The translations under genes and the position numbers were made by a program. The notes under the pieces are model-generated. The model saw nothing but the letters and a program-made list of their open reading frames with translations, was not told the DNA's origin and made no database searches. A stretch of 64,000 bases of DNA from a virus, in the IMG/VR virus record IMGVR_UViG_3300026078_000024, positions 28,878-92,877 of that record; one strand, written 5' to 3'. Numbering within the stretch: position 1 is the first letter of the stretch; the number at the start of each line of letters is the position of its first letter. This document shows positions 1,421 to 35,665 of the stretch, in pieces.

Positions 1421-2013
1421 CTGTCTCCCCGGCCGCTCGTATTACCAGGATGCCAATGATAATACCAAGTGCGCTCGTTCAGATGGTGGAACGTCGCCCC
1501 GGCGTCCAGGAGCTTGAGCCACAACCCCCATTCGTCGCATGGGCTCGCGCCCGGCTCCCTGCTCTTGTTCCGGTCCTCGAACCCGCCGACGGACATAGCC
1601 AGCTCGGTACGAACCAGGAGAGTCACCGGAATGTAGTTCTGGATCTTCCTGAGCGCATGCTCGTTGAACGGTTGCCCCTCGTACTCCGGGAAAGGATCCC
1701 ACCCGGACGGCACGGTGAACCACGGATAGATCACATCGGCGCCGGACTCCTGTGCGGCCCGTAGCAGAGATCCAATGTGCCCCGGGCGCAGTGTGTCGTC
1801 GTCGTCCAAAAACGCAGTCCATTCGGTCGTCACGCCAGCGAGAGCCCGGTTTCTGGTGATGGCCGAACCTTCATGCGCCGTATCCACAGCAATGCTGATC
1901 CCGTCCACCGGATGTTCTTGCCGGAGAACGGAATCCATCGCCCTGGGCAGAAGGGTACGGGCCCGGGGCGGGATGCTCGGAGTGACCACGGTCACACCTG
2001 GCCTGTAGATCAC
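1414..2013 (-). CDS. GT2-like glycosyltransferase
   Basis: 199 residues from a GTG at 2013. N-terminal VTVVTPSIPPR starts the Rossmann-like GT-A fold. ITRNRAL near residue 52 and DDDD near residue 70 form the nucleotide/metal site, and CDEWGLWLKLL provides the late acidic motif. It is clearly a paralogue of the product at the left window edge (same TRN, DDDD and LLDAGA blocks). Expected activity is transfer of a sugar from an NDP donor in the infected-cell cytoplasm. Acceptor unknown. Confidence 0.8.
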   Translation of the reverse strand: MIYRPGVTVVTPSIPPRARTLLPRAMDSVLRQEHPVDGISIAVDTAHEGSAITRNRALAGVTTEWTAFLDDDDTLRPGHIGSLLRAAQESGADVIYPWFTVPSGWDPFPEYEGQPFNEHALRKIQNYIPVTLLVRTELAMSVGGFEDRNKSREPGASPCDEWGLWLKLLDAGATFHHLNERTWYYHWHPGNTSGRGDRW

Positions 2014-2147
2014 GGCTTCCTCCGGTCCTTGATGTCCCGTGCGACAAGACCGGCGATCGCCCCCAGGCAGACACCGATCACTCCCATCACGATCAACCCG
2101 AGGACCGGGCCGTAGAAGCCGGTGAAGTAGTCGATCACGGCGGTCAC
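2010..2147 (-). CDS. Small single-span membrane protein
   Basis: 45 residues from GTG at 2147, overlapping the stop of the dehydrogenase gene (GTGA), and ending against the start of the next glycosyltransferase gene. About residues 8-36 form one hydrophobic span rich in Gly, Val, Ile and Leu, and the tail is charged (ARDIKDRRKP). Translational coupling on both sides supports it being real. Function unknown. It could anchor the neighbouring glycosyltransferases at the membrane, which is only inference. Confidence 0.5.
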   Translation of the reverse strand: MTAVIDYFTGFYGPVLGLIVMGVIGVCLGAIAGLVARDIKDRRKP

Positions 2148-3403
2148 AGTTTCCTCCCCAGGCGGATCAAGGTAACGCCGGACTGGTCGACGATGATCCC
2201 CGTCGGATCGATGACCACGGATCCGGGGGCGAACCGCAGAGACCGGAACTCCTCATGCCCGCATCCGATCACGAACACCGACCGGTGCTGGACCACCTCC
2301 GGGTTCCAGTGATCGTCAGTGTGCGGGTCCGTGGTATAGACCGGCACGATCTCCGCGAGTTGCTGGAAGAGAAGGAGCGCGGCCGACCCACCGGCGAGAT
2401 CACTGCCCGGCCGGTACGCGTTGCCGAGGATCACCACGGGAAGGTCGGTGAGGGCGTGGTAATCGATCGCGAGGGACGCGATCCACGACGACTGCGCCTC
2501 CCGCGCCCTCTGGAGGAACCCGAAGATATCGGCGGAGAGATCCAGCCGGTCGGCGAGATGCGACATGGCCACCACGTCCCGGGGGTGGCAGTACCCGCCT
2601 CCACCCATGCCGCCCTTGAGATACCTCCGGCTCATCAGGTTCGTGGTGGCGAGGGCGAGGGTGGTGGAGACGTCGTCCACGTCCGCGCCGGTCTTCTCGG
2701 CCAGCTCCAGCATCGTGTTCGCGAAAACGATCTTCATGGACGTGTACGTGTTGTACGCGACCTTGGTCAACTCCGCCGACGGGATCCTCATGGTCCTGAT
2801 CGGCCGGGAGTGCAAGGACGTGTAGATCTCCGTCACCGCGAGGGCGTCCTCGTAGGTGTCGGCACCCACGATCACGAACTCCGGGTTGAGGAGATCGTCG
2901 GCCACAGACCCGAGGGAGATCAGGGACGGGGTGTAGACCAGTCGGGTGTGATCGTTGAGGAGCGGCCGGAGCAACCTGTCGCACGTGCCGGGGAGCACTG
3001 TGGAGATCACCGCGATCGTGATCGTCTTGTGTGCCATGTCGGCCGCGCGCGCCAGCGACCGGACGGCGTTGATCAGGTAGGCGTAATCGAAGTCGCGCCG
3101 GGTCTCGGGGTCGAGGTTCGGCACGGTCCCGTCGAGGTGCGCCGGGTGCGGAGTCTGCACCGCTACAAAGATCGTGTCGGCGTTCGCGACGAGGGTCGCC
3201 GGGTCGTTGACGACGTTCATGCGGTTCAGGGCGAGGAGGTTGTCGATCTGTACCTCCTGCGGCGGCACGGCCTTGCCGGAGATGATGTCGAGGGGGTGCC
3301 GGGACATGTCGCACCCGGTCACCCGGTGTTTCCCGTGGACGTCGAGAACGAGGGCAAAGACGAGGCCCAGCTTCCCGAGACCGAGGACACCGACGTCAGC
3401 CAT
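2144..3403 (-). CDS. UDP-glucose/GDP-mannose dehydrogenase family enzyme
   Basis: 419 residues from ATG at 3403 behind GGAAGGA. The N-terminal NAD-binding Rossmann motif is GLGKLGLVF; the central domain includes AELTKVAYNTYTSMKI (the conserved Lys/Asn helix). The catalytic Cys lies in GGGGYCHPRD, matching the GGxCxPxD motif of the family. The C-terminal UDP-binding domain begins near VVILGNAYRPGSD. Family members oxidise NDP-hexoses to uronic acids with two NAD+. It neighbours methyltransferases and an epimerase, so it probably feeds a modified sugar donor to the phage glycosyltransferases. The exact substrate cannot be read from sequence. Confidence 0.85.
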   Translation of the reverse strand: MADVGVLGLGKLGLVFALVLDVHGKHRVTGCDMSRHPLDIISGKAVPPQEVQIDNLLALNRMNVVNDPATLVANADTIFVAVQTPHPAHLDGTVPNLDPETRRDFDYAYLINAVRSLARAADMAHKTITIAVISTVLPGTCDRLLRPLLNDHTRLVYTPSLISLGSVADDLLNPEFVIVGADTYEDALAVTEIYTSLHSRPIRTMRIPSAELTKVAYNTYTSMKIVFANTMLELAEKTGADVDDVSTTLALATTNLMSRRYLKGGMGGGGYCHPRDVVAMSHLADRLDLSADIFGFLQRAREAQSSWIASLAIDYHALTDLPVVILGNAYRPGSDLAGGSAALLLFQQLAEIVPVYTTDPHTDDHWNPEVVQHRSVFVIGCGHEEFRSLRFAPGSVVIDPTGIIVDQSGVTLIRLGRKL

Positions 3404-3405
3404 GG

Positions 3406-4164
3406 TCAGTCCTTCCGGGTGAGGATCGCGGCGCAGTACCGCCGGTCCGGGGTGAGGTAGTCGAAGTCGGTGATCGTGAACAGGTCTCCGAACCGCCGGT
3501 CGAGCTTCTCGCGGTCGTACCACGTGGCGTAGGTCCCGGTACCGTCGAAGAACCGCACGAATTGATCGAACTTCTCGTGCTCCTCCACCGGCTCCCGGGG
3601 CGGCTCGGTGCCGGTGGCGATCCTCCAGCCCTCGTCGCTGTAGACCATGAGCCGGATCTTCCCGTCCGGAGCCAGCATGAGATCGAACATTTCCATGGTC
3701 AGGCGGGCCTTGCGGATGTGGTGCAGCACCCCGCAGCAGTGGATCTCGTCGTACGTGTCGGTCAGGGCATGGATGTACGGCCACTCTTCAGTGATCTTGT
3801 ACATGTTCTTCGGGCCCCGGCCGGTCTCCAGACTCATCACGTGCGCGGCCAGTTCCACGTTCGCGGAGGACAGGTCGGCGATCGAGACGATGGCGCCGGT
3901 CCTGGCGATCTCCGCCGCTTCCATGCCCACCCCGCAGCCGTACTCCAGCACCCGTTGCCCGTACCGGTTCTCGTCCAGTGCCATGTAACGGCGCCACAGG
4001 CCGTCGTGGTTGCGCCAGCCGGTGTAACGGGTCTGGCGCATACGCTCGATCACTTCGTGAAGGTGATCATCGTTCCACGTGAGCATCTCGGCGGACGAGA
4101 GATACCCGACGTCGTCCACCGGCGGCAGGGACCATGCAGTCACGGTGTCGGCCCACTCGGTCAT
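3406..4164 (-). CDS. Class I SAM-dependent methyltransferase
   Basis: 252 residues from ATG at 4164, overlapping the upstream stop (ATGA). Motif I is VLEYGCGVGMEAA near residue 77, followed by an acidic strand end at IADLSSAN and YDEIHCCGVLHH as the post-motif strand. These place it among small-molecule or sugar methyltransferases of the Methyltransf_11/25 type. The gene lies between the C-methyltransferase-like gene and the dehydrogenase, so sugar O- or N-methylation is likely. Substrate unknown. Confidence 0.75.
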   Translation of the reverse strand: MTEWADTVTAWSLPPVDDVGYLSSAEMLTWNDDHLHEVIERMRQTRYTGWRNHDGLWRRYMALDENRYGQRVLEYGCGVGMEAAEIARTGAIVSIADLSSANVELAAHVMSLETGRGPKNMYKITEEWPYIHALTDTYDEIHCCGVLHHIRKARLTMEMFDLMLAPDGKIRLMVYSDEGWRIATGTEPPREPVEEHEKFDQFVRFFDGTGTYATWYDREKLDRRFGDLFTITDFDYLTPDRRYCAAILTRKD

Positions 4165-5432
4165 GACTTCCCCACGATCTCGAAGTGCGGCAAAGGAAAG
4201 ATCATCCGGCCGCCGTTCTTCAGGTAGTCGGCTTCCCGTTCGAGGAACACGGACCGGAAGAACCACGGGGAGATCAGGAGGTACTCCGGGTGGACGGCCC
4301 GCATGCCGGACTCATCCATGATCGGAATCCCGGTCGCGGACATGATCTTTCCGACCTTGGCCGGTGACCGTTCCACGGCGTACGGCAGGAGATCCGGCCC
4401 GGCGTCGATCATCTGGAGGAACGTCCCGCCCCGGGTGGACGCGCCGTACAGATAGACCGTCTCGCCCCGGTCGGCCGCCTTCTCCAGGAACGCCCGGGTG
4501 AGATCGAGTTCCTGCTTGACCGACCGGCCCCACTCCTGCCACACCTCCGGTCGTTGCAGCCCCTTGATCACCTCGGTCTCGTACACGTCCTGCACGCTGG
4601 CCGACTGCGGCCGGTCTCCGATGCGGGACACGGCCGTCCGGATGCACCCGCCGTTGACGGACGAGAAGGTGACATCGTTGATCTCCAGGCCGTGACGCTC
4701 CAGGAGGATCATGAGGGGGAGGAGCGCGAAGTACGTCACGTGTTCGTGGCACACGTTGTCGACTGCGTTCCGGCGGAGCATGTCCCCGGCGTAGTTCTGC
4801 TGAATGATCCACACCCCGCCGGGGGCGAGGCACTGCTCCACCCCGTGGACGAACCGGTTCGGATCATCGAGGTCGTAGAACATGGACACGGACGTGATCA
4901 CGTCGAACTCGCCGGGCTGGAAGAACCGGGGAGAAAAGTAGTTGTAGATCACCCGGTCGGCCGCGCCGGTCCGGCGCGCGTCCCGGGCGATCACGTGGAC
5001 CGGGTCGATCCCCGTGCGGGTGATCCCTGCCGGGACGTGACTGAGGAGGGTCCCGTCGTTGCAGGCGATGTCCAGCCACCGGCGCGGGTCGTGGCGGAAG
5101 GCGAGGGCGTAGTCGACCACGTCTTTGAGGTCCCGGACGATCGCCTCGTTCGTGCCGGACCGGAAGCCGTATCGATCATGGTAGAGCTTCTCGCGCGGCG
5201 TCGACTCCCCGAGCTGAAGAAGGGTGCAGTCGAGGCAGATCTTGAGCTTGAGGGGGTACGTCTCGGCGTCCGACCGGTAGTCGTCCGGGTCCACGAAGTC
5301 GGGGAGGCGGTGATTGCCGAGATCGATCACGTCCACGAGGTGGAGGGAGCCGCAGGACCGGCACACCACCCCGGGAACGCCCTCAATCAACGCCTGCATG
5401 TTCCGCAGGCCCGCATCCGTGGTCTTGCTCAC
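4161..5432 (-). CDS. NDP-hexose C-methyltransferase-like protein
   Basis: 423 residues from GTG at 5432 with GGAGGA five bases upstream. The N-terminal zinc module has CRSC near residue 23 and CLDC near 67. The SAM domain starts at WLDIACNDGTLLSH. The conserved CHEHVTYF block sits near the middle, and LYGASTRGGTFLQM begins the C-terminal nucleotide-sugar-interaction domain. This three-part layout and length match TylC3/NovU-type deoxysugar C-methyltransferases, which act on NDP-4-keto sugars. It is coupled (GTGA) to the epimerase gene. The sugar is not known. Confidence 0.8.
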   Translation of the reverse strand: MSKTTDAGLRNMQALIEGVPGVVCRSCGSLHLVDVIDLGNHRLPDFVDPDDYRSDAETYPLKLKICLDCTLLQLGESTPREKLYHDRYGFRSGTNEAIVRDLKDVVDYALAFRHDPRRWLDIACNDGTLLSHVPAGITRTGIDPVHVIARDARRTGAADRVIYNYFSPRFFQPGEFDVITSVSMFYDLDDPNRFVHGVEQCLAPGGVWIIQQNYAGDMLRRNAVDNVCHEHVTYFALLPLMILLERHGLEINDVTFSSVNGGCIRTAVSRIGDRPQSASVQDVYETEVIKGLQRPEVWQEWGRSVKQELDLTRAFLEKAADRGETVYLYGASTRGGTFLQMIDAGPDLLPYAVERSPAKVGKIMSATGIPIMDESGMRAVHPEYLLISPWFFRSVFLEREADYLKNGGRMIFPLPHFEIVGKS

Positions 5433-6319
5433 TGGCTCCTCCAGTAGCTCATGACGTCGGACAACATGGAATGCAGGGAGGTGGTCGGCCGCCAGCCGGT
5501 CACCGTCTTGATCTTCGCGTTGCTCGGGACCGGCCAGACCTGCGCGTCCCGGTGGACCAGGAGCGGATCTTCCTTCAGCTCGATCTCCGCCGTGGACATG
5601 CTCGCGAGGGTGTGCATGACGTGTTCCATGGTCACGTTGTTGGCCGAGCACACGTTGTAGATCCCCGGCTCCGCGTCGATCACGGCCGCGTATGCCTGCA
5701 CCACGTCCCGGACCGAGGTGAAGTTGCGGTACGCGGAGAGATCACCGTGTGAGACGAAGTCGGCGTGGCCCCGCTCCACGGCCACGATCCGGCGCGCGAA
5801 AGACGACTCCGCGTTCGCCGACTGGCGGCCCCACCCCGTATGGTTCCAGGCCCTCGTGCAGACGACGTGCATTCCGTACCGGCGCGCGTACGCCTGACCG
5901 GCCGTCGTCGCCCCCAGCTTCGCCGCTCCGTACGGCGTGGTCGGGAAGCATGGGGACAGCTCGGTGATGATCTCCGCCCCGTCCGGCCGCTCGTATCCGT
6001 ACTCCTCCGACGTGCCGGTGATCAGGATCCTCGCGTGTGCGCCGGTGGTCCGGACGGCCTCCAGGGTGTTCAAGGTTCCGCCCACGTTGACGTCGAACAC
6101 CCGGCGCGGATTGCGGAGCGACTCTCCCGGCCACGAGACGGCTGCCAGGTGGAAGATCTTGTCAGGCTGGAACTCGCTGACCATGTGCCGGACGGTCTCG
6201 AAGTCGCGGACGTCGCACGCGGCGAGGGTGCACCCCTGAACGGTGTGCCCCTGGTTCTCCAGCAGCTTGCGGAGGTGAGGCCCAACGAAGCCCCCCGCGC
6301 CCGTGATCATTGCTTTCAC
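5429..6319 (-). CDS. NAD-dependent epimerase/dehydratase (extended SDR)
   Basis: 296 residues from GTG at 6319, overlapping the upstream stop. The cofactor motif is GAGGFVG at residues 7-13. The active site has Thr/Ser-Glu-Glu in TGTSEEYG and the YxxxK pair in YGAAK. NHTGWGRQS and RNFTSVRDVVQAY are blocks typical of GDP-mannose 4,6-dehydratase and related sugar epimerases. It probably makes the keto or deoxy sugar used by the C-methyltransferase encoded next to it. Whether it is a dehydratase, epimerase or reductase cannot be decided here. Confidence 0.8.
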   Translation of the reverse strand: MKAMITGAGGFVGPHLRKLLENQGHTVQGCTLAACDVRDFETVRHMVSEFQPDKIFHLAAVSWPGESLRNPRRVFDVNVGGTLNTLEAVRTTGAHARILITGTSEEYGYERPDGAEIITELSPCFPTTPYGAAKLGATTAGQAYARRYGMHVVCTRAWNHTGWGRQSANAESSFARRIVAVERGHADFVSHGDLSAYRNFTSVRDVVQAYAAVIDAEPGIYNVCSANNVTMEHVMHTLASMSTAEIELKEDPLLVHRDAQVWPVPSNAKIKTVTGWRPTTSLHSMLSDVMSYWRSQ

Positions 6320-27271: not shown

Positions 27272-27474
27272 ACAATCCTTCGGATGTTCTTCCGAACAAA
27301 GAACTGAAGGCACTGGCGGCACATCACCGCCGGTGCCTTCTCTGCCGCTATCTGTTCGGGTGCCGTGTCTCCGACCGTCTCCTCACCGCATATCATCACT
27401 CCGTTCACATCCCCATGGAGGCGCCCGGTGCTCCGGTTCCTGCGGTACGAGAAGATCCCCCTCGACGAGCTTGA
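27268..27474 (+). CDS. Small Cys-containing protein overlapping dpdA
   Basis: 68 residues from ATG at 27268 (ATGA overlap). HHRRCLLCRYLFGCR may bind a metal. Its last 47 bases overlap the probable start of the ParB-DpdA gene at 27428, which is unusually long for this genome, so either this gene or that start may be mis-set. Confidence 0.4.
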   Translation: MNNPSDVLPNKELKALAAHHRRCLLCRYLFGCRVSDRLLTAYHHSVHIPMEAPGAPVPAVREDPPRRA

Positions 27475-28813
27475 TCTCTTCCCCGGCAACGCGAACGTCG
27501 GCAACGTCCCGGCGATCGTGGAGTCCTTGATCGAGAATTCACAGTTCCGCAGTCTGATCGTTCGCGAGGTGGACGGGCGGCACGTGGTCATGGCCGGGAA
27601 CCATACGAAGCTGGCCATGGTCGAACACGGCGCACAGCTCTGCGACCGGGCGCGGCGGCACGCCGAGAACCCGGACGACAACCCTGCGTGCGGCCTGTGC
27701 GTGGACGATCAACCGTTCGACGGTCGGCCACGGTGCGAGATCTACGAATGCGACGACGACGATGCGATCAAGGTCAACGTCGCGGACAACCGGATCCAGG
27801 AGTTCGGGCACCGGGACGATCAGCTTCTGGCCGACCAGCTCGGCACGTTGGAAGATCTCGCGGGCACCGGTTACGACTACCACGACTACGAGTCGATCAC
27901 GCACCGCCTCTTGGAGGGCAGCTACATAGATCAGCAGACGGCGGAGGTACTGGCCACCCAGGAACCGGTGAGCGCCCCGGAGCCGGGAAGCCAGGCACCA
28001 CCCGACCCCCCTCGGGTCATCTCCCGCACCGTCCCCCTCGACGCCATGTTCTGTTGCCGCTACAACTCGATCTCCCTCGCGGCGTACGAGATGGGTTTCC
28101 TGCCCGGCATGATCTCGTCCAAGACCGATGCCTGGCGCAAGATCCTGGACCGCAACCCAGGCATCCGTATCGGTCTCATGGACAACGACTGGCACGACTA
28201 CGATCATGCCGCGCACATCGCCGGGGTGACGGAGGCGAAACCGAAATACGCCACGGTCCGGGACGTCATGACCAAGGCGCAGTGCGAGGCGGCCGGGGTG
28301 GAGTTCTTCCCGGTCGAACAGATCCTGGACATGGCGGCCGAGGTCGCGGAACACGCCGACCACGTGATCGTGATCCCGAAGTACGACTGCCTTGACAAGA
28401 TCCCCGAAGAGTACGTGATCGGGTTCTCCGTGCCCACGTCCTACGGCGGTACCCCCATGCCCGCCTCGATGCTCCAAGGACGCCGGGTCCACCTCCTCGG
28501 CGGATCATGGAAGAACCAGCGCGCGTTCCTGGAGATCCTCGGCGAGGACGTGGTGTCTCTGGACAACAACCACGTCTTGAGGATCTGCGAGTTCGGGAAC
28601 TTCTCGTTCCCCGACGGGTCCACGTCCCGTCTCGCCAATCTCGACCCACGGATGCCGCGCACCTGGCAGGCCGCCGCGATCTTGTCTCTTGCCTCCATCC
28701 GGGACGAACTCAACGCCCGGTATGCGGCAGGGATCACGTCGGCGGCCGACGAGGTGCCGGACGTGACGGAGTACGTGCACGACGATCAAGAGGACAACGA
28801 GGAGACGGAATGA
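27428..28813 (+). CDS. dpdA: ParB domain fused to DpdA-type DNA guanine transglycosylase
   Basis: 461 residues from GTG at 27428 behind GGAGG. Residues 1 to about 110 form a ParB/sulfiredoxin-type domain (IPLDELDLFPGNANV, then VVMAGNHTKLAM). From about 200 onward the sequence resembles TGT-like phage proteins of the DpdA group: FCCRYNSISLAAYEMGF, RIGLMDNDWHDYDH (candidate catalytic Asp residues), IVIPKYDC, and RRVHLLGGSWKNQ, like the HLLG segment of tRNA-guanine transglycosylases. DpdA enzymes swap guanine in DNA for a 7-deazaguanine base. The operon encodes the base supply. The ParB part may select DNA sites. Confidence 0.75.
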   Translation: MLRFLRYEKIPLDELDLFPGNANVGNVPAIVESLIENSQFRSLIVREVDGRHVVMAGNHTKLAMVEHGAQLCDRARRHAENPDDNPACGLCVDDQPFDGRPRCEIYECDDDDAIKVNVADNRIQEFGHRDDQLLADQLGTLEDLAGTGYDYHDYESITHRLLEGSYIDQQTAEVLATQEPVSAPEPGSQAPPDPPRVISRTVPLDAMFCCRYNSISLAAYEMGFLPGMISSKTDAWRKILDRNPGIRIGLMDNDWHDYDHAAHIAGVTEAKPKYATVRDVMTKAQCEAAGVEFFPVEQILDMAAEVAEHADHVIVIPKYDCLDKIPEEYVIGFSVPTSYGGTPMPASMLQGRRVHLLGGSWKNQRAFLEILGEDVVSLDNNHVLRICEFGNFSFPDGSTSRLANLDPRMPRTWQAAAILSLASIRDELNARYAAGITSAADEVPDVTEYVHDDQEDNEETE

Positions 28814-29202
28814 CCAAGGTTCTCGGAGAACGCACGAGCGCCCCGATCAAGGCGGCGGATCTCGACGTGATCGACGTCGACAACCTCGCCCGGCCGGTGC
28901 GCTACACCACCAAGGAGCTGAACGCCCTCTGCCCGGTCACCGGCCAGCCGGACCAGTACGAGGTGATCATTCAGTACGACGCGCCGGGGAAGACGATCGA
29001 GTCCAAGTCCCTGAAGCTCTACCTCTGGTCGTTCCGGGACCGGGGGATCTTCGCGGAGGATCTCGCCGCGACGATCGCGAAAGATCTCTGCAAGGCGTTG
29101 CGGTTCCCGGTCCGGGTGCATCTCACGCAACAGGTCCGGGGCGGGTTGGTCCTGGAGGTCGACGCGTTCGGAGAACCGGTCATGGGGAGTGACGACGTAT
29201 GA
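28810..29202 (+). CDS. queF: QueF-family preQ0 reductase
   Basis: 130 residues from ATG at 28810 (ATGA overlap with dpdA). The tunnel-fold signature is clear: LCPVTGQPD has the nucleophile Cys41 and acid Asp48. ESKSLKLY (64-71) is the NADPH-binding QueF motif that archaeal QueF-L amidinotransferases lack. The usual HE pair is AE here (Ala82-Glu83), so the conserved His is missing. QueF reduces the nitrile of preQ0 to the aminomethyl of preQ1 with two NADPH. If active, the phage base would be preQ1 or a derivative. Length matches unimodular QueF. Confidence 0.85.
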   Translation: MTKVLGERTSAPIKAADLDVIDVDNLARPVRYTTKELNALCPVTGQPDQYEVIIQYDAPGKTIESKSLKLYLWSFRDRGIFAEDLAATIAKDLCKALRFPVRVHLTQQVRGGLVLEVDAFGEPVMGSDDV

Positions 29203-29882
29203 AGGCGATCATCTGTTTCTCCGGCGGGATGGACTCCACCGTCCTCGCCACGTCGTACCTCCACCAGGGGTACAAGCTGGGCCTGTTGTCGTTCGACTAC
29301 GGGCAACGCCACAAGGCGGCCGAGCTGGCGGCCGGTGCGCGCGTCGCCGGGTATCTCGACAACCTCGGCATCGCGCCCGTGTCCCGCCAGGTGGTCGATC
29401 TCGGGGTCCTCGGGGATCTCCTCCCCGGTTCCGCGTTGACGGATCCGGAGGTCGACGTGCCGGACGGGCATTACGCGGCCGAGACGATGCGCGCCACCGT
29501 GGTCCCGAACCGCAATGCGATCATGGCGAACATCGCGATTGGGGTTGCGTCGGCGGTGGAGGCGGACGTGATCGCCCTCGGGATGCATGCCGGGGACCAC
29601 GCGATCTACCCCGACTGCCGACCCGAGTTCGTCCGGGCGTTGCGTCAGACCATGGTCCACGCCCTCAAGGGGTTCCACACCCCGCGTCTCGACACGCCGT
29701 TCATCGGCATCAGCAAGACCAACATCGCCCGCCTCGGGGACACCCTCGGCGCGCCGGTGCATCTCTCCTGGTCCTGCTACAAGGGCGGCGATTTGCACTG
29801 CGGCACCTGTGGCACGTGCACAGAGCGCAAAGAGGCGTTCAAGGACGCCGGTGTCCATGATCCGACGGAGTACCTGGCGTGA
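29199..29882 (+). CDS. queC: 7-cyano-7-deazaguanine synthase
   Basis: 227 residues from ATG at 29199. The PP-loop SGGMDS (8-13) binds ATP. The C-terminal zinc site uses Cys193, Cys201, Cys204 and Cys207 in CYKGGDLHCGTCGTC. VVPNRNAIMANIA is the conserved substrate-loop block. QueC converts 7-carboxy-7-deazaguanine and ammonia to preQ0 at the cost of ATP. There is no extra amidotransferase domain, so an archaeosine-type Gat-QueC route is not indicated. Overlaps queF and queD by 4 nt. Confidence 0.95.
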   Translation: MKAIICFSGGMDSTVLATSYLHQGYKLGLLSFDYGQRHKAAELAAGARVAGYLDNLGIAPVSRQVVDLGVLGDLLPGSALTDPEVDVPDGHYAAETMRATVVPNRNAIMANIAIGVASAVEADVIALGMHAGDHAIYPDCRPEFVRALRQTMVHALKGFHTPRLDTPFIGISKTNIARLGDTLGAPVHLSWSCYKGGDLHCGTCGTCTERKEAFKDAGVHDPTEYLA

Positions 29883-30256
29883 GCTACACGATCTGCAAGA
29901 CGTTCCGGTTCGAGGCCGCGCACCAGTTGCACGGCCTCCCGCCGGACCACCAGTGCGCCCGGATGCACGGCCACTCCTACCGGATCGACCTGGAACTCAC
30001 TGAGTTGGGTGCCGAGTTGGACTACCCCGGGTTCGTGGTCGACTTCGGGCGCCTGAAGCCGTTCAAGGAGTGGATCGACAAGACCCTCGATCACCGCGTC
30101 CTGAACGAGATCCTGCCGGTCGAACCGACAGCGGAGAACCTCGCCGCATGGATCTTCTCCGTGGTCGAGATCGCCCTCCCGGAATGGATCTCCGGCAAGG
30201 TCGCGGCCGTGAGGGTCCACGAGACCGAGACATCCTGGGCGGAGTACCGGCCGTGA
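29879..30256 (+). CDS. queD: 6-carboxytetrahydropterin synthase
   Basis: 125 residues from GTG at 29879. The zinc ligands are His15, His30 and His32 (FEAAHQLH, MHGHSY); Cys26 is the catalytic thiol. LDHRVLNE and ETETSWAEY give the conserved Asp/His and Glu. QueD makes CPH4 from dihydroneopterin triphosphate supplied by FolE. Complete and of normal length. Confidence 0.95.
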   Translation: MSYTICKTFRFEAAHQLHGLPPDHQCARMHGHSYRIDLELTELGAELDYPGFVVDFGRLKPFKEWIDKTLDHRVLNEILPVEPTAENLAAWIFSVVEIALPEWISGKVAAVRVHETETSWAEYRP

Positions 30257-30900
30257 GGCCCGACTCCGTGGACAAGATCGTCGTCCAGTACTTCGGTGCC
30301 GTGACGGCGCAGCGGTTCGAGTACCGGGGCGTGGTGCACGACGTGCCGCGCCTCACCGTCTCCCCCGGCCTCCTGCGCGGTTACACCTGCCCGGCCGGAT
30401 GCGGCGGGTGCTGTCCCCGCTTCTCGTTGGACTACCTGCCGACCGAGACGCGGCCGGACGGCACCACGCCCCGGATGATCGACTTCAACGGGTACCAGGT
30501 GGAGATCTTCTCGGATCTCCAGGACGACCACCGTTCCGACCGCTGCCGGAACCTGATGCCCGACGGCCGGTGCGGCATCCATCCGGTCCGCCCGTTCTCG
30601 TGCGACTTCGAGCTGATCCGGTTCATGGCCCGGCCGGGCACGGCGCACATGAATCAGCGCCTGTTCTCCCGTGGGTGGAACATGAAGCGCACCGACGGCG
30701 GCCGGGGCGCCAAGTGCGAGATGCTCCCGGCCGACCCGTCCACCGTGGCGGACGTGATCCGTAAGCTCGGCCGTCTGGCGGAATGGGCCGACCACTTCGG
30801 GATCTCCACCCGCACCGGCCTGATCGTCGACTGGGTGGAGAAGATCAAGGACGATCCCATGTCGGCCGACAACCTCGTCCTTCCGGGGAGGTCGCGGTGA
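30253..30900 (+). CDS. YkgJ-like cysteine-cluster protein
   Basis: 215 residues from GTG at 30253 (GTGA overlap with queD). CPAGCGGCCPRF near residue 48 and RCRNLMPDGRCGIHPVRPFSCDFE near 95 carry the CxxGCxxCC, Cx(n)C and RPxxC pattern of the YkgJ family (predicted zinc/iron-sulphur chelating). Members are of poorly known function, some linked to protein or peptide modification. It is inserted between queD and queE with overlaps on both sides, so a role in making or altering the deazaguanine base is plausible. That is inference from context. Confidence 0.7.
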   Translation: MRPDSVDKIVVQYFGAVTAQRFEYRGVVHDVPRLTVSPGLLRGYTCPAGCGGCCPRFSLDYLPTETRPDGTTPRMIDFNGYQVEIFSDLQDDHRSDRCRNLMPDGRCGIHPVRPFSCDFELIRFMARPGTAHMNQRLFSRGWNMKRTDGGRGAKCEMLPADPSTVADVIRKLGRLAEWADHFGISTRTGLIVDWVEKIKDDPMSADNLVLPGRSR

Positions 30901-31652
30901 GCTACCAGGACAACCACGACACCGTGACCCCGTCTCTCGTCGTCTCGGAGATCTTCGGGCCGACCGTGTCCGGCGAGGGCGCGACGTTGGGGCGCCGGTG
31001 CGGCTTCCTCCGCCTCATGGGCTGCAACCTTCACTGCACGTGGTGCGACACGGCGTACACCTGGGATGCGCGCCGGTTCGATCTCGTCGCGCAGGGCCAC
31101 CGGATGACATGGCCGGTGATCGTGGAGCAACTGATCGCGATGAACGTCGACCTGGTGATCGTCTCCGGCGGAGAACCTCTCCTCCACCAGGACCAGCGGG
31201 CTTGGGAGTTGATCCTCCGCTCCCTGACCGGCGCCGGTATCGGGGTCGAGGTCGAGACGAACGGTACGAAGATCCCGAACCAGGCCAGCCGGGACTTCGT
31301 GCGCCGGTTCACCGTCTCCCCCAAGCTGGCGCACGCCGGTGATCCCGAGTCGGCGCGCATCGTGCCGGAGGCGATCGGTGCCTTTCGGCTGATCATGGAC
31401 CAGCTGGGTGAGTGGAAGGACAGGGTGATCTTCAAGTTCGTGTGCGCCACCCCGGAGCACGTGGCCGAGGTGCAGCGCTGGGTGAAGATCTTCCAGATCA
31501 GGCCGGAGTGCGTATGGATCATGCCGGAGGGCGTCGACACTCCGGCCTTGTGCGATCATCTGGCTGTGATCACGGATCCTGCCGTGGCTGCCGGGTTCAA
31601 CGTCACGACCCGCCTCCACATCCATGTGTGGGGCGACGAAAGAGGCCACTGA
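30897..31652 (+). CDS. queE: 7-carboxy-7-deazaguanine synthase (radical SAM)
   Basis: 251 residues from GTG at 30897. IFGPTVSGEGATLGRRCGFLRL is the QueE N-terminal block. The iron-sulphur cluster motif is Cys43, Cys47 and Cys50 (CNLHCTWC). VSGGEPLL binds SAM and VEVETNGT lies on the barrel. It converts CPH4 to 7-carboxy-7-deazaguanine by radical rearrangement. All key motifs are intact. Followed two bases later by folE at a TGATCATG junction. Confidence 0.93.
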   Translation: MSYQDNHDTVTPSLVVSEIFGPTVSGEGATLGRRCGFLRLMGCNLHCTWCDTAYTWDARRFDLVAQGHRMTWPVIVEQLIAMNVDLVIVSGGEPLLHQDQRAWELILRSLTGAGIGVEVETNGTKIPNQASRDFVRRFTVSPKLAHAGDPESARIVPEAIGAFRLIMDQLGEWKDRVIFKFVCATPEHVAEVQRWVKIFQIRPECVWIMPEGVDTPALCDHLAVITDPAVAAGFNVTTRLHIHVWGDERGH

Positions 31653-31654
31653 TC

Positions 31655-32290
31655 ATGTGCACTGACGCCTGTTCCGAGATGCATACCTACATCCCCGGTT
31701 GTGATCTCTCCGTGGGTTTCGCCGCGCCGACGGCGGCCGACATGTTCCGCGACGGCATGCGCGGCATGTTCTCGTACCTCGGTCTCGACCCGGACGGCGA
31801 GGAACTGGTGGACACCCCCGGCCGGTGGATCCGGGCCATGGAAGAGTTCACGCAGGGGTATCAGGAAGATCCCGGTCGGATCCTGGAACGGACCTTCCCC
31901 GTGGCCCGGTCCGGCGCGGAACCAATCGGCGTGTCCCATATCCCGTTCACGTCCATCTGTGCCCACCACCTGTTGCCGTTCTCCGGCACGGCGATGATCG
32001 CCTACATGCCCGGCGAGGGTGACCGGGTGGTGGGTCTCTCCAAGCTCCCGCGTCTTCTCGACGCGTTCGCCCGACGTCTCCAGACCCAGGAACGGATCAC
32101 GGTGCAGATCACCGAAGCGATCGACAAGCATCTGTCGCCCCGGGGTGCGGCGTGCGTGATCCGGTCCGAACACGGGTGCCTCGCGCACCGGGGAGCACGG
32201 AAGCCCGGCGCGGTCATGGTGACCTCGTCCTTTACGGGATACTTCAGAGATCCGGACCGTCGGCGGGAGCTTCTCGACCTCATGCGGTGA
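31655..32290 (+). CDS. folE: GTP cyclohydrolase I
   Basis: 211 residues from ATG at 31655. LVDTPGRWIRAMEEFTQGY, the zinc motif CAHHLLPF, KLPRLLDAFARRLQTQERIT and GCLAHRGARKPGA are the standard FolE blocks in order, with the second zinc Cys in GCLAHRG. It hydrolyses GTP to dihydroneopterin triphosphate, the entry substrate of deazaguanine synthesis. Last recognised base-synthesis gene of the operon. Confidence 0.93.
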   Translation: MCTDACSEMHTYIPGCDLSVGFAAPTAADMFRDGMRGMFSYLGLDPDGEELVDTPGRWIRAMEEFTQGYQEDPGRILERTFPVARSGAEPIGVSHIPFTSICAHHLLPFSGTAMIAYMPGEGDRVVGLSKLPRLLDAFARRLQTQERITVQITEAIDKHLSPRGAACVIRSEHGCLAHRGARKPGAVMVTSSFTGYFRDPDRRRELLDLMR

Positions 32291-32317: not shown

Positions 32318-32914
32318 ATGACGGCACCCGAACGATTCGAAGATCCCGAGCGGTTGGAACGGATCAGGCAGGCCGCACACCTGAAGGTGGTCGTCGGCAT
32401 GACCTGGGACGATGCGGCGCGCGCCACCGGCTTCAACTCCCCCCAGGCGTGTTCGGCGGCGGTGAAGGCGCACGTCAAGAACCTCGCCCGGGAGACGGAG
32501 AAGGAGTTGGAGGCCCTCGTCCAGCAGTCGGACATGCGGTACGACGCCATGCGGCGCCGGGCTCACGCGATCATGGTGGCCGACCATCCGTTGGTGCAGG
32601 GCGGAGAGATCGTGAGGGACGACCAGGGGCGGCCGTTGCGGGACGCCGGTCCACAACTCGCGGCGCTCAATGCCCTGTTGAGAATCGAGTCGCAGTGGTC
32701 CGATCTGCACGGGATCAACGCCTCCAAAAAGCTGGAGATCGCCCTCAACGTCCGGGCCGACGTGGAGTCGAATCTTGTGGCAGAGGCGGTTCTCGCGGCG
32801 GCTGAAGCCCTTGGCTTGGAACCCCAACAGCGCATGCTCGCCCTGGAAGCGGCAGCGGCGCGTCTCGACGCGGTGGACGGAGAGGTGATCTCGGATGAGC
32901 AGACCCCTGAGTGA
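32318..32914 (+). CDS. HTH protein, possible small terminase subunit
   Basis: 198 residues from ATG at 32318, 27 nt after folE. An N-terminal HTH (IRQAAHLKVVVGMTWDDAARATGFNSPQACSAAVK) is followed by a long helical region with dimer-like heptads and LRIESQWSDLHGIN. This resembles phage small terminase subunits (DNA-binding head plus coiled-coil oligomer domain). It is 8.7 kb upstream of the large terminase, which is unusual. Another DNA-binding role is equally possible. Confidence 0.45.
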   Translation: MTAPERFEDPERLERIRQAAHLKVVVGMTWDDAARATGFNSPQACSAAVKAHVKNLARETEKELEALVQQSDMRYDAMRRRAHAIMVADHPLVQGGEIVRDDQGRPLRDAGPQLAALNALLRIESQWSDLHGINASKKLEIALNVRADVESNLVAEAVLAAAEALGLEPQQRMLALEAAAARLDAVDGEVISDEQTPE

Positions 32915-33053
32915 AGACGATGCGGCGGCCCGGCGGAAAGACGAGAACGGTTCATGGGGCGTGATCGTCATGTGCGACACCGAACAGCAGCAGATCGAGC
33001 TGCTCCAGCGCATGATCGACGAAGGCCGGGTCGTCCGCGCCCTGATCAAATGA
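32895..33053 (+). CDS. Small protein, unknown
   Basis: 52 residues from ATG at 32895, overlapping the previous gene by 20 nt and the GNAT-like gene start by 4 nt. Charged N-terminus (SEDDAAARRKDENG), then VIVMCDTEQQQIELLQRM, which reads as strand plus helix. Not recognised. The double overlap supports translation. Confidence 0.5.
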   Translation: MSRPLSEDDAAARRKDENGSWGVIVMCDTEQQQIELLQRMIDEGRVVRALIK

Positions 33054-33580
33054 CCGGGTTCACGTGGCACCGGTCGACCGGCCATCCATTCGTCCCGTTG
33101 TGCATTCACAAGATCGACCGGTCCCTGTGGCCCATGTTCTCCCGCCACCACTACCTGAGCGCCGATATCAACTCCTCCGCACAGTGTTACGGCGGGTTCA
33201 TCGGGGAAGATCTCGTGGCGTTCATGGCGTACATCCATTTCCCCCATCCCAAGGTCCGGAACATCAAACGCGGGCATCGCACCGTCGTCCTCCCCGACTT
33301 CCAAGGGCTCGGGATCTCCGGGGTCATGGCGGAAACCATCGGCCAGATGCTGCACGATCAAGGCTTCCGTTACCGGCGCGTCATCGCCCACCCGGCAGTG
33401 ATCTCCTACTGCTCCCGGTCACCGCGTTGGAGGGAAACCACCAACACCTCTCGCAAGGTTCCTGACCGGCCGACCGGAGACAGGTGGAGTGTGGCGGGAG
33501 AACGGACCCCGGTGAAACGGATCATCGATCCCCGCGTCCTGTCCATGAGATCGTTCGAGTATGTGCCGGTGATCAGGTGA
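33050..33580 (+). CDS. GNAT-fold acyltransferase-like protein (Mom/COG2401-like)
   Basis: 176 residues from ATG at 33050 (ATGA). WPMFSRHHYLS (27-37) and VAFMAYIHFPHP (near 56-67) form the first strands. VVLPDFQGLGIS holds the acetyl-CoA loop pattern QxxGxG at 85-90 (GNAT motif A), and HPAVISYCSRSPRW is the late conserved block. The arrangement resembles the GNAT half of GNAT plus ABC-ATPase proteins (COG2401) and phage Mom-like proteins, which transfer groups to DNA bases. The ABC-ATPase gene follows with a 4-nt overlap. Substrate unknown. Confidence 0.7.
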   Translation: MTGFTWHRSTGHPFVPLCIHKIDRSLWPMFSRHHYLSADINSSAQCYGGFIGEDLVAFMAYIHFPHPKVRNIKRGHRTVVLPDFQGLGISGVMAETIGQMLHDQGFRYRRVIAHPAVISYCSRSPRWRETTNTSRKVPDRPTGDRWSVAGERTPVKRIIDPRVLSMRSFEYVPVIR

Positions 33581-34251
33581 AGAGGGACATCGAGGTCTTT
33601 ACGGAGATCAACGTCACGCCCCGGGTTCTCCAGGTGTCCGGCATGTTCGACGTCCCGGCGTCCGGCAGGGTCACCGCCCAGTGGAGTGTGGATCTTCCCA
33701 TCGAGGACCGTGAGTGGAATGTCGGTCTTATCGTCGGCCCGTCCGGTTCGGGCAAGTCGGTCATGGCGCGCACATTGTTCCCCGAGGCGACCCGTGCCGT
33801 TCATTCCTGGGACGACCGGGCCCTTGTCGACTGCTTCCCTCCCGGTATGGGGATCAAAGACGTGGTCGGCCTCCTCACCTCGGTGGGTCTCGGTTCTCCC
33901 CCGGCGTGGATACGCCCCTACCGGACCCTCTCCACCGGTGAGGCGTTCCGCGCCTCCGTCGCCCGTACATTGGCCCAGGCCGAGGGAGTGTGCGTGGTGG
34001 ACGAGTTCACGTCCACCGTGGACCGGCAGGTTGCGAAGATCGCCAGTCATGCGATTCAGAAGACAGTGCGGCGGCGCGGCCAGCAACTGATCGCCGTCAC
34101 CTGCCACTACGATGTGATCGACTGGCTTCAGCCGGATTGGATCTACGACACCGGAACGTCACACGCGGCACTCGGCGGAGAAGATCCGGCGGTCATTGAG
34201 AAGATCAACCCCACCGGCCCGTGCGTCCACCAGACAAGGATCTCCTCATGA
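33577..34251 (+). CDS. ABC-type ATPase partner of the GNAT-like protein
   Basis: 224 residues from GTG at 33577. Walker A is GPSGSGKS (54-61). The signature helix is LSTGEAFRAS, a variant of LSGGQ. Walker B is VCVVDEFTS and the H-loop is CHYDVIDW. No membrane partner gene is nearby and it lacks transport signatures, so it is a soluble ABC ATPase. In COG2401 proteins such an ATPase is fused to a GNAT domain; here the two are separate but coupled. It may gate or energise the modification reaction. Confidence 0.75.
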   Translation: MKRDIEVFTEINVTPRVLQVSGMFDVPASGRVTAQWSVDLPIEDREWNVGLIVGPSGSGKSVMARTLFPEATRAVHSWDDRALVDCFPPGMGIKDVVGLLTSVGLGSPPAWIRPYRTLSTGEAFRASVARTLAQAEGVCVVDEFTSTVDRQVAKIASHAIQKTVRRRGQQLIAVTCHYDVIDWLQPDWIYDTGTSHAALGGEDPAVIEKINPTGPCVHQTRISS

Positions 34252-34589
34252 GTCCGAGTGACTTCAACCCGATCGGGCCGGACGCGTTCGATCTCGGTCA
34301 TGATCATTGGGGCGCCTACTCCGCATGGGCACCGGACCGGGAACTGAATCCCCACCGTGCGCACCTGCCGGACGTGGAGAAGTGGGGGATCTTGATCTAC
34401 CACAAGAACCCGGCCGGTAAGTGGTGCGCCGGGTTCTGCACCTTCGCCGGAGACGTGCAACGGGAGGTGGCACCGACGGCGGTCACGTGGGACGTGATCA
34501 GTTGGGAACCGTTGACGATCTCTCCGTCCGTTCTCTGTTCGTGCGGTGATCATGGTTATGTGCGCGAAGGGGCATGGGTGCCTGCCTGA
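34248..34589 (+). CDS. Small actinophage protein with C-terminal Cys/His motif
   Basis: 113 residues from ATG at 34248 (ATGA overlap). LPDVEKWGILIYHKNPAGKWCAGFCTFAGD and TISPSVLCSCGDHGYVREGAWVPA look like small phage proteins of the DUF6527 type (PTxSPSxxC...CGDHGxxxxGxW). The family role is unknown. It is the last gene before a probable promoter and an unrelated endonuclease, so it may be the 3' end of the modification operon. Confidence 0.5.
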   Translation: MSPSDFNPIGPDAFDLGHDHWGAYSAWAPDRELNPHRAHLPDVEKWGILIYHKNPAGKWCAGFCTFAGDVQREVAPTAVTWDVISWEPLTISPSVLCSCGDHGYVREGAWVPA

Positions 34590-35260: not shown

Positions 35261-35308
35261 GGATCTAGTCAAATTTAGATGTATGGGGTAGGTACAGCAC
35301 CCGTAGAT

Positions 35309-35338
35309 CAAAAGAGAACCCCTCCGGAGAGGGGTTCT
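35309..35338 (-). terminator. Rho-independent terminator for small minus-strand ORF
   Basis: The minus strand reads AGAACCCCT, a 6-nt loop, AGGGGTTCT, then CTTTTG. It is 5 nt past the stop of the ORF ending at 35344, which supports that ORF being transcribed. Confidence 0.75.
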
Positions 35339-35343
35339 GATCT

Positions 35344-35451
35344 TCACTTCTTGATCTTCCGATTGACGATCGACTTCGCGTTCGGGGTCCTGCGCGCTAT
35401 CCGGGTGGCGGAGAAGAAGATTGCCGCTGCGACTCCGGGGGTCCTGTTCAT
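35344..35451 (-). CDS. 35-residue basic peptide inside inverted-repeat segment
   Basis: From ATG at 35451 with AGCAGGGA upstream. Sequence pattern: short hydrophobic stretch (VAAAIFFSA) then a basic tail (RIARRTPN...NRKIKK), pI very high. It is flanked by its own promoter-like and terminator sequences and enclosed by the 20-bp inverted repeats. Could be a DNA-binding or membrane-active peptide. Not recognised. Confidence 0.5.
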   Translation of the reverse strand: MNRTPGVAAAIFFSATRIARRTPNAKSIVNRKIKK

Positions 35452-35485
35452 GATCCCTGCTCTCTGTTGATTTGTCCATCTACTA

Positions 35486-35514
35486 GTAGTATGCGCCGAA
35501 TTGACCCGGTTCAA
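35486..35514 (-). promoter_or_regulatory. Candidate promoter TTGAAC-17-TACTAC
   Basis: On the minus strand TTGAAC (35514-35509), a 17-bp spacer, and TACTAC (35491-35486) lie 35 nt upstream of the small ORF start. It fits a vegetative sigma-type promoter. The region also contains the palindrome-like ACTAGT. Confidence 0.45.
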
Positions 35515-35592
35515 CCCGATTCGATGGTAAAATCTAAGAACTTTTAATGCTGTACCTACCCCATACACCTAACTGCGCTGGAGCAAGATCAG

Positions 35593-35665
35593 TCGGGTGG
35601 GTGAGACTCGAACTCACGATCTCTGGTTCCCGAAACCAGTGCCTTACCACCTTGGCCACCACCCG
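35593..35665 (-). tRNA. tRNA-Pro (anticodon CGG)
   Basis: Full cloverleaf on minus: acceptor CGGGTGG/CCACCCG (7 bp), D-stem GCC/GGC, anticodon stem CTGGT/ACCAG with loop TTCGGGA (anticodon CGG), 5-nt variable loop, and T-stem GTGAG/CTCAC with loop TTCGAGT. Discriminator A; no encoded CCA. C1-G72 with A73 is typical of tRNA-Pro. It reads CCG codons, which are very common in this genome. Confidence 0.93.

Follow-up and report, generated by a model that had tools for sequence, protein, structure and literature searches.

Does a GNAT acyltransferase encoded together with an ABC ATPase downstream of preQ1 genes act on dPreQ1 in the DNA of a phage, or on another target? The window analysed here is a stretch of 64,000 nucleotides that forms part of a 92,877-base virus record (IMGVR_UViG_3300026078_000024). 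A sequence-only reading of it had proposed, from gene context, that the GNAT acylates the amine of dPreQ1. Profile searches, structure models and the gene neighbourhoods of related loci were used here to follow up this proposal.

A split GNAT-ABC pair with swapped halves

The GNAT gene (33050-33580, plus strand) starts with ATG and encodes 176 aa, and the ABC ATPase gene (33577-34251, plus strand) starts with GTG and encodes 224 aa. Both have a four-base overlap with each of their neighbours, which are a 52-aa ORF before the GNAT and a 113-aa ORF (34248-34589, plus strand) overlapping the stop of the ABC gene, the latter with a weak DUF6527 match below cut-off. In the PHROGs profiles, the GNAT corresponds to positions 196-324 of phrog_11143 (E 1.4e-23) and the ABC ATPase to positions 3-194 (E 7.4e-63). 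Because the matches fall on different parts of one family, the pair represents the fused ABC-GNAT protein divided between two genes whose order is exchanged. The overlaps and the profile matches bear out two earlier claims, that the genes form a coupled pair downstream of the preQ1 genes and that they look like separated halves of a protein combining GNAT and ABC ATPase; the order is opposite to that of the family.

The match of the GNAT to Pfam Acetyltransf_1 falls below cut-off (E 0.039), NCBIfam returned no match, and a sequence search of the PDB gave weak GNAT matches with a best E of 8.9e-4. No relative was found in a viral scan with the window GNAT sequence as sole query. The AlphaFold model of the protein (pLDDT 85.9) has its top GNAT structural match at Z 14.0, and the fold neighbours listed are generic GNATs, the nearest being small-molecule and N-terminal protein acetyltransferases, including RimI and Naa50. 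Mom of phage Mu and TmcA are GNATs acting on a nucleic-acid base, and TmcA couples the GNAT to an ATPase. Mom is absent among the fold matches listed for the window GNAT, and no Mom family was listed for it in the Pfam, PHROGs and NCBIfam searches. The residues invariant in the family are all kept (8/8), as are eight of the nine near-invariant ones, the exception being R12, which is H in the window. The ABC ATPase exceeds the cut-off of Pfam ABC_tran (28.1 bits, cut-off 25) and shows, by pattern, the Walker A motif GPSGSGKS, the signature LSTGE and the CH of the H-loop, together with a Walker B motif VCVVDE recognized by eye. PADLOC gave weak ABC matches, QueC, and MTase_II for the ParB of Jace, and nothing else.

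Searches of phage records gave 81 matches for the ABC half (E 1e-3), the weaker of which may be other ABC proteins, and 45 for the GNAT half (E 1e-2). A total of 91 ABC-GNAT loci were compared, 11 from phages and 80 from viral contigs (the best 80 of 115 relatives). The ABC precedes the GNAT in all 91 loci, the reverse order occurs in none, and the two are fused in 78 (77 by script, plus L027). A set of 92 further loci was obtained from a viral scan with the GNAT profile (the best 80 of at least 598 relatives, two of them already known) and a genome scan (14 loci). In these 92 loci, which include re-finds of the same contigs, the ABC comes before the GNAT in 91 and after it in none, and one locus is ended by the contig edge. 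Among the 91 loci and the 92 further loci compared, the permuted order of GNAT then ABC has so far been met only in the window, where the usual family layout, ABC then GNAT and mostly one ORF, is replaced by two ORFs with the GNAT first. We treat the window pair as a rearranged variant because homology, not layout, defines the family. The 4.2 kb contig L027 carries two fused ABC-GNAT copies (3-935 and 1992-3095) that are 72% identical, with a relative of PanD behind the first copy. ABC halves in public phage records are annotated as iron siderophore transporter, which looks wrong.

A GNAT coupled to an ABC ATPase is predicted to acylate a DNA base in the accessible text of PMC7824862, where Tenacibaculum phage pT24 is named, and PX29p085 of Aeromonas phage PX29 is described in that of PMC8056088 as 'presumably modifies DNA, unknown base'; pT24 and PX29 p085 were both matched by our family searches. 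The system of Iyer et al. 2013, as far as its accessible description goes, consists of the same ABC and GNAT families with a predicted acyl modification of a DNA base. In the window, by contrast, each half has a gene of its own with the GNAT first, only a tail is left of the ParB partner, and preQ1 genes belong to the same overlapping gene run as the module. The earlier view of the pair as an acyl-transferring DNA modifier fits the printed prediction for the family, whereas dPreQ1 as its substrate is not supported, as detailed below. The accessible parts of the openly licensed literature yielded no modified base for any ABC-GNAT family member.

preQ1 genes and a predicted transglycosylase

The genes for QueF (28810-29202, ATG start), a predicted preQ1 synthase, QueC (29199-29882), QueD (29879-30256, GTG start), QueE (30897-31652) and FolE, GTP cyclohydrolase I (31655-32290), all lie on the plus strand upstream of the pair. 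QueC and QueE were recognized by Pfam, PHROGs and NCBIfam, and QueD and FolE by Pfam and PHROGs. QueF is over the Pfam cut-off and under that of NCBIfam QueF-II (76.4 bits, cut-off 86.9), and it keeps the residues invariant in a 13-sequence alignment that includes it, among which are the Cys and Asp residues and the motif ESKSLK. From QueF to the ORF at 34248, each start lies within the end of the preceding gene, except those of FolE and a TerS-like gene, and the run is presumably read as one transcript. Inside the que operon, between QueD and QueE, a CxxCxxCC protein is encoded (30253-30900, plus strand; PF03692 21.9 bits, cut-off 23), and Cys-rich proteins that look similar by eye occur in other QueF clusters (L275 7562-8251, L267 4557-5249). 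QueF is annotated as GTP cyclohydrolase in Knocker, Rinkes, Mufasa8 and HVTV-1, which looks wrong; HVTV-1 adds a correct note. Elsewhere in the window, ORFs starting with MYGVGTA on both strands (35279 plus, 35568 minus) suggest an inverted repeat at 35279-35568, adjoining a tRNA-Pro gene (35592-35665), and a UDP-glucose/GDP-mannose dehydrogenase-like protein is encoded with a C-methyltransferase at 2144-5651, as in sugar pathways.

Before QueF, a ParB-like core is fused to DUF6610 (PF20314) in a predicted DpdA-like protein (27428-28813, plus strand; start at 27365 or 27428). The DUF6610 model (pLDDT 85.2) is a barrel, and its best VIA match is the archaeosine TGT 1iq8_A (Z 14.6, rmsd 3.6, 231 residues). 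Other TIM barrels score as high as Z 13.7, over shorter stretches of about 185-200 residues, Foldseek put aldolases first, and a PDB sequence search with DUF6610 gave no relative. QueF, QueC, Vut_1 or QueT was found in the flanks of 22 of 26 DUF6610 loci, some of them near-duplicates, and QueF in 13; none of the four is present in the flanks examined of L105 and L115-L117. The genomic context and the model together point to ParB-DUF6610 as a predicted TGT-like deazaguanine DNA transglycosylase. Profile comparison of DUF6610 with the classical DpdA of actinophages (comparison set Sour, Sonali, Mufasa8 and Funsized) gave no match, with an hhalign probability of 0.3 and nothing from hmmsearch, and Funsized carries both DUF6610 and classical DpdA. 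DpdA4 was reportedly described in archaeal viruses by Cui et al. 2023, and DUF6610 may be this DpdA4. Overlapping tandem genes in L125 (9566-11901) encode a ParB-DUF6610 protein and a copy that looks diverged by eye.

HVTV-1 gp69 (L220 3804-4964) is a DUF6610 protein adjoining FolE; according to the accessible text of PMC6884629, HVTV-1 DNA contains dPreQ1 and no DpdA had been identified in 2019. The phage 7-deazaguanine systems of HVTV-1, Dp-1, Sour, Funsized and Mufasa8 resemble the window in having QueC, QueD, QueE, FolE and a transglycosylase, some of them also QueF, and dPreQ1 has been measured in HVTV-1 and Dp-1. The DNA of the window phage likely contains dPreQ1. Unlike the window, Sour, Funsized, Mufasa8, Sonali and HVTV-1 are without the window GNAT (0/5).

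ParB-like partners, cassette exchange and downstream neighbours

A ParB-like ORF with a C-terminal tail is found upstream of the ABC-GNAT in 80 of the 91 loci by a tail HMM, which was built from 14 of these same loci; the HMM detected no tail in the other 11. The consensus of the tail, read by eye, is V-V-C-DE-Q-LLERL-EG-CRAL. None of 12 other ParB-like proteins gave a match to the tail HMM: three are those of the window, and the other nine, three of which come from related contigs, are ParBs that accompany or are fused with DpdA, DUF6610 or a methyltransferase. The 52-aa ORF before the GNAT (32895-33053, plus strand) is this tail, detached from its core (tail HMM E 1.1e-14); it is identical to L019 at 58% of 31 aa and to L017 at 62.5% of 32 aa. 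Its start and stop both overlap neighbours. The ParB core is therefore absent from the GNAT-ABC module of the window, where the tail alone is kept before the GNAT. The ParB core fused to DUF6610 shares 37% identity with L017 (E 3e-23). The two remaining ParB-like proteins in the window are a protein matching Sour gp1 at E 1.7e-4 and one for which no match was found. Judged by sequence similarity, the DUF6610-fused protein is the only one of the three that is clearly related to the module ParBs.

The gene at 32318-32914 (plus strand) belongs to phrog_645, labelled 'RNase E', and is regarded as TerS-like from its position and from relatives beside terminase genes. Modification cassettes flank it on both sides. 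In Sourvirus, ParB-DpdA-que and ParB-ABC-GNAT cassettes occupy the same place beside the terminase. The left end of Gordonia phage Sour (gp1-8) reads ParB-DpdA-QueC-QueD-hyp-QueE-FolE-terminase (L101 1-6029), and BiggityBass (gp1-4) of the same genus reads ParB-ABC/GNAT-formyltransferase-terminase (L006 1-4196). The two ParBs share 61.5% identity across 169 aa and have different tails. Among Arthrobacter phages, Sonali and EastWest differ in their cassettes in the same way, with ParBs 50% identical over 119 aa. Among contigs related to the window at the terminase, the order in L132 is ParB-ABC-GNAT-TerS, with a TerS 40% identical to that of the window and TerL next by eye, and in L098 a ParB fused to an N6/N4 DNA methyltransferase is followed by a TerS 67% identical to that of the window. 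ParB-like proteins beside DpdA (DpdB) and ParB-DNA methyltransferase fusions are also described in the accessible texts of PMC12783734, PMC6392294 and PMC12839542. ParB cores thus seem to carry interchangeable modification enzymes, and these swaps place the ABC-GNAT among DNA modifiers. Cassette exchange is the best evidence here for such a role, and it agrees with the printed prediction as far as the accessible texts state it.

Genes behind the ABC-GNAT hint at the group transferred. A relative of PanD follows directly in 11 of the 91 loci by tblastn, in about four lineages by eye (L004 9110-9535, L019-L023, L027, L036, L054, L056 and L057), and a relative of formyltransferases follows directly in eight, again by tblastn and in about four lineages by eye (L006 1823-2473, L008 6113-6730, L079-L081, L084, L087 and L094). 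These ORFs often overlap the ABC-GNAT. Pfam confirmed one case of each kind, the PanD of Jace (PF02261, E 2e-33) and the formyltransferase of BiggityBass (PF00551, E 7e-10), and additional cases were found among the 92 further loci. The annotation of BiggityBass gp3 as 'tRNA-methyltransferase' looks wrong, since it is a formyltransferase by Pfam. Such neighbours suggest an amino-acyl (perhaps beta-alanyl) or formylated group for the family. Neither gene was found when the window phage genome was searched, and searches of the openly licensed literature for PanD or COG2401 were without match.

Substrate of the pair and competing explanations

QueC was above cut-off in 0/91 ABC-GNAT records (0/11, 0/40 and 0/40), many of which are fragments; one 28-position QueC match in G051 lies below cut-off, and L095 came up positive in the QueC search alongside the set of 11. 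Isolated phages that carry the ABC-GNAT but no QueC above cut-off include Gordonia/Rhodococcus phage Jace, Arthrobacter phage EastWest, Lactococcus phage P335 and Leptospira biflexa phage LE3. The ABC-GNAT is thus common in phage records lacking a detected QueC, and an obligate link with preQ1 is ruled out. QueC is rare anyway: tblastn with the window sequence at E 1e-10 detected it in 273 of 50,697 phage records. The zeros therefore mean no association rather than avoidance. The search for co-occurrence with queF and dpdA, which the sequence-only reading had suggested, was negative too. A GNAT of the ABC-GNAT family was found in none of the 26 contigs and five phages searched that carry DUF6610 or DpdA (0/31; the control was the phage's own genome, E 3.8e-59, with none internal), nor within 6 kb flanks of 80 QueF loci (the best 80 of 288 relatives). 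Moreover, the family residues kept in the window GNAT argue for unchanged chemistry. These results speak against dPreQ1 as the substrate of this GNAT, and acyl-preQ1 was not found in the accessible parts of the openly licensed literature on phage DNA.

Other GNATs do lie beside QueF. Overlapping ORFs are arranged QueF-GNAT-QueC in L125 (12545-14147) and QueF-GNAT in L306 (5959-6836). The order DpdA-GNAT-GNAT-ParB-QueF is found in L234 (2853-7082), with Vut before QueF, and in L252 (3428-7083), and the order GNAT-QueF-Vut in L267 (2254-4155). In L106 (3081-4067) and L258-L260 a GNAT precedes QueF by 0.2 to 1.2 kb. PF00583 was over cut-off in 3/31, 10/49 and 4/26 records. A GNAT lies less than 2 kb from QueF in 13 of 16 GNAT-bearing QueF contigs (expected 3.5, P 1e-7) and, counted by lineages grouped by hand, in five of eight (expected 1.1, P 0.002); the 2 kb limit was chosen after the positions had been seen, and the count does not include HVTV-1, where some 4.9 kb separate the GNAT from QueF. 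None of 11 such sequences matched the family profile of the window GNAT. GNATs beside QueF elsewhere make acylated preQ1 a plausible chemistry and are, to our knowledge, an apparently new precedent; such a base would probably come from these QueF-linked GNATs and not from the phrog_11143 GNAT. The BRC systems, in the accessible text of PMC12839542, resemble the window in that a GNAT and a TGT homolog occur together and are proposed to modify DNA; they differ in serving defence in bacteria and archaea, in carrying PglZ and HerA, and in being described in that text as devoid of a homolog of the ParB-like DpdB.

We consider it most probable, at roughly 0.55, that the window pair is a rearranged ParB-ABC-GNAT cassette providing a second base modification stacked on dPreQ1. 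The fused ABC-GNAT gene would have been split and its halves swapped, with the ParB partner left as the 52-aa tail protein. The GNAT would move an acyl group from a CoA thioester to the exocyclic amine of an ordinary DNA base, while the ABC ATPase would work the DNA by distorting, opening or scanning it. The tail may dock the pair to a ParB-like DNA adaptor, and the ParB core is here fused to the DUF6610 transglycosylase that would insert preQ1. The two stacked modifications, dPreQ1 and an acylated normal base, might then protect against restriction. Several points weigh against this explanation: the fold is that of a generic GNAT, so that a protein target is conceivable, the accessible literature gave no modified base for any family member, loss of the ParB core may have altered or abolished the function of the module, the tail went undetected in 11 of the 91 related loci, and the window GNAT departs at the near-invariant R12.

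The pair and the preQ1 genes sharing one overlapping run, the loss of the module's own ParB core where the only clearly related ParB is fused to DUF6610 (E 3e-23 to L017), and a QueF that should yield the free-amine form would all suit a GNAT that acylates the aminomethyl group of dPreQ1, the module being re-aimed by that ParB core to give a two-step hypermodified guanine. GNATs near QueF in other phages, with overlapping ORFs in L125 and L306, and the pairing of GNAT and TGT in BRC systems, as far as PMC12839542 is accessible, lend it chemistry. It is nonetheless unlikely given the absence of QueC above cut-off from the ABC-GNAT records and of the family GNAT from the DUF6610, DpdA and QueF sets, the mismatch of the tested QueF-linked GNATs to the family profile, and the retained invariant residues. 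A merger of the two cassettes, with one ParB core driving DUF6610 and, via the tail, the GNAT-ABC, so that preQ1 insertion and acylation at the same site would produce N-acyl-dPreQ1, seems quite improbable to us. About as doubtful is a regulatory or counter-defence role in which the pair acts on a protein, whether the RNA polymerase of the host, a nuclease, the terminase or ParB. The generic fold with RimI and Naa50 among the best matches, the position of the module next to terminase genes in several phages, and the phage GNATs known to acetylate host proteins (in the accessible text of PMC7824862) would accord with it, but the DpdA-que and methyltransferase cassettes that replace the module after homologous ParBs speak against it, and PanD or formyltransferase neighbours fit a chemical modification better than protein acetylation. 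That the module is a decaying, functionless remnant, split, permuted and without its ParB core, we regard as very unlikely: it is the sole permuted copy among the loci compared and its core is missing, but the two reading frames are intact and overlap those next to them, family and ATPase motifs are retained, and even the 52-aa tail persists as an ORF with overlapping start and stop.

For phages with GNATs coupled to QueF, acylated dPreQ1 becomes a concrete prediction. The GNAT-ABC system itself is widespread in phages, with at least 598 GNAT relatives in one scan, and it now has testable handles: a ParB tail that tracks the enzyme, swaps of its cassette for deazaguanine or methyltransferase ones, and neighbouring PanD and formyltransferase genes as a clue to the acyl group. 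The window would represent one phage that stacks two modification systems, which perhaps share one ParB adaptor.
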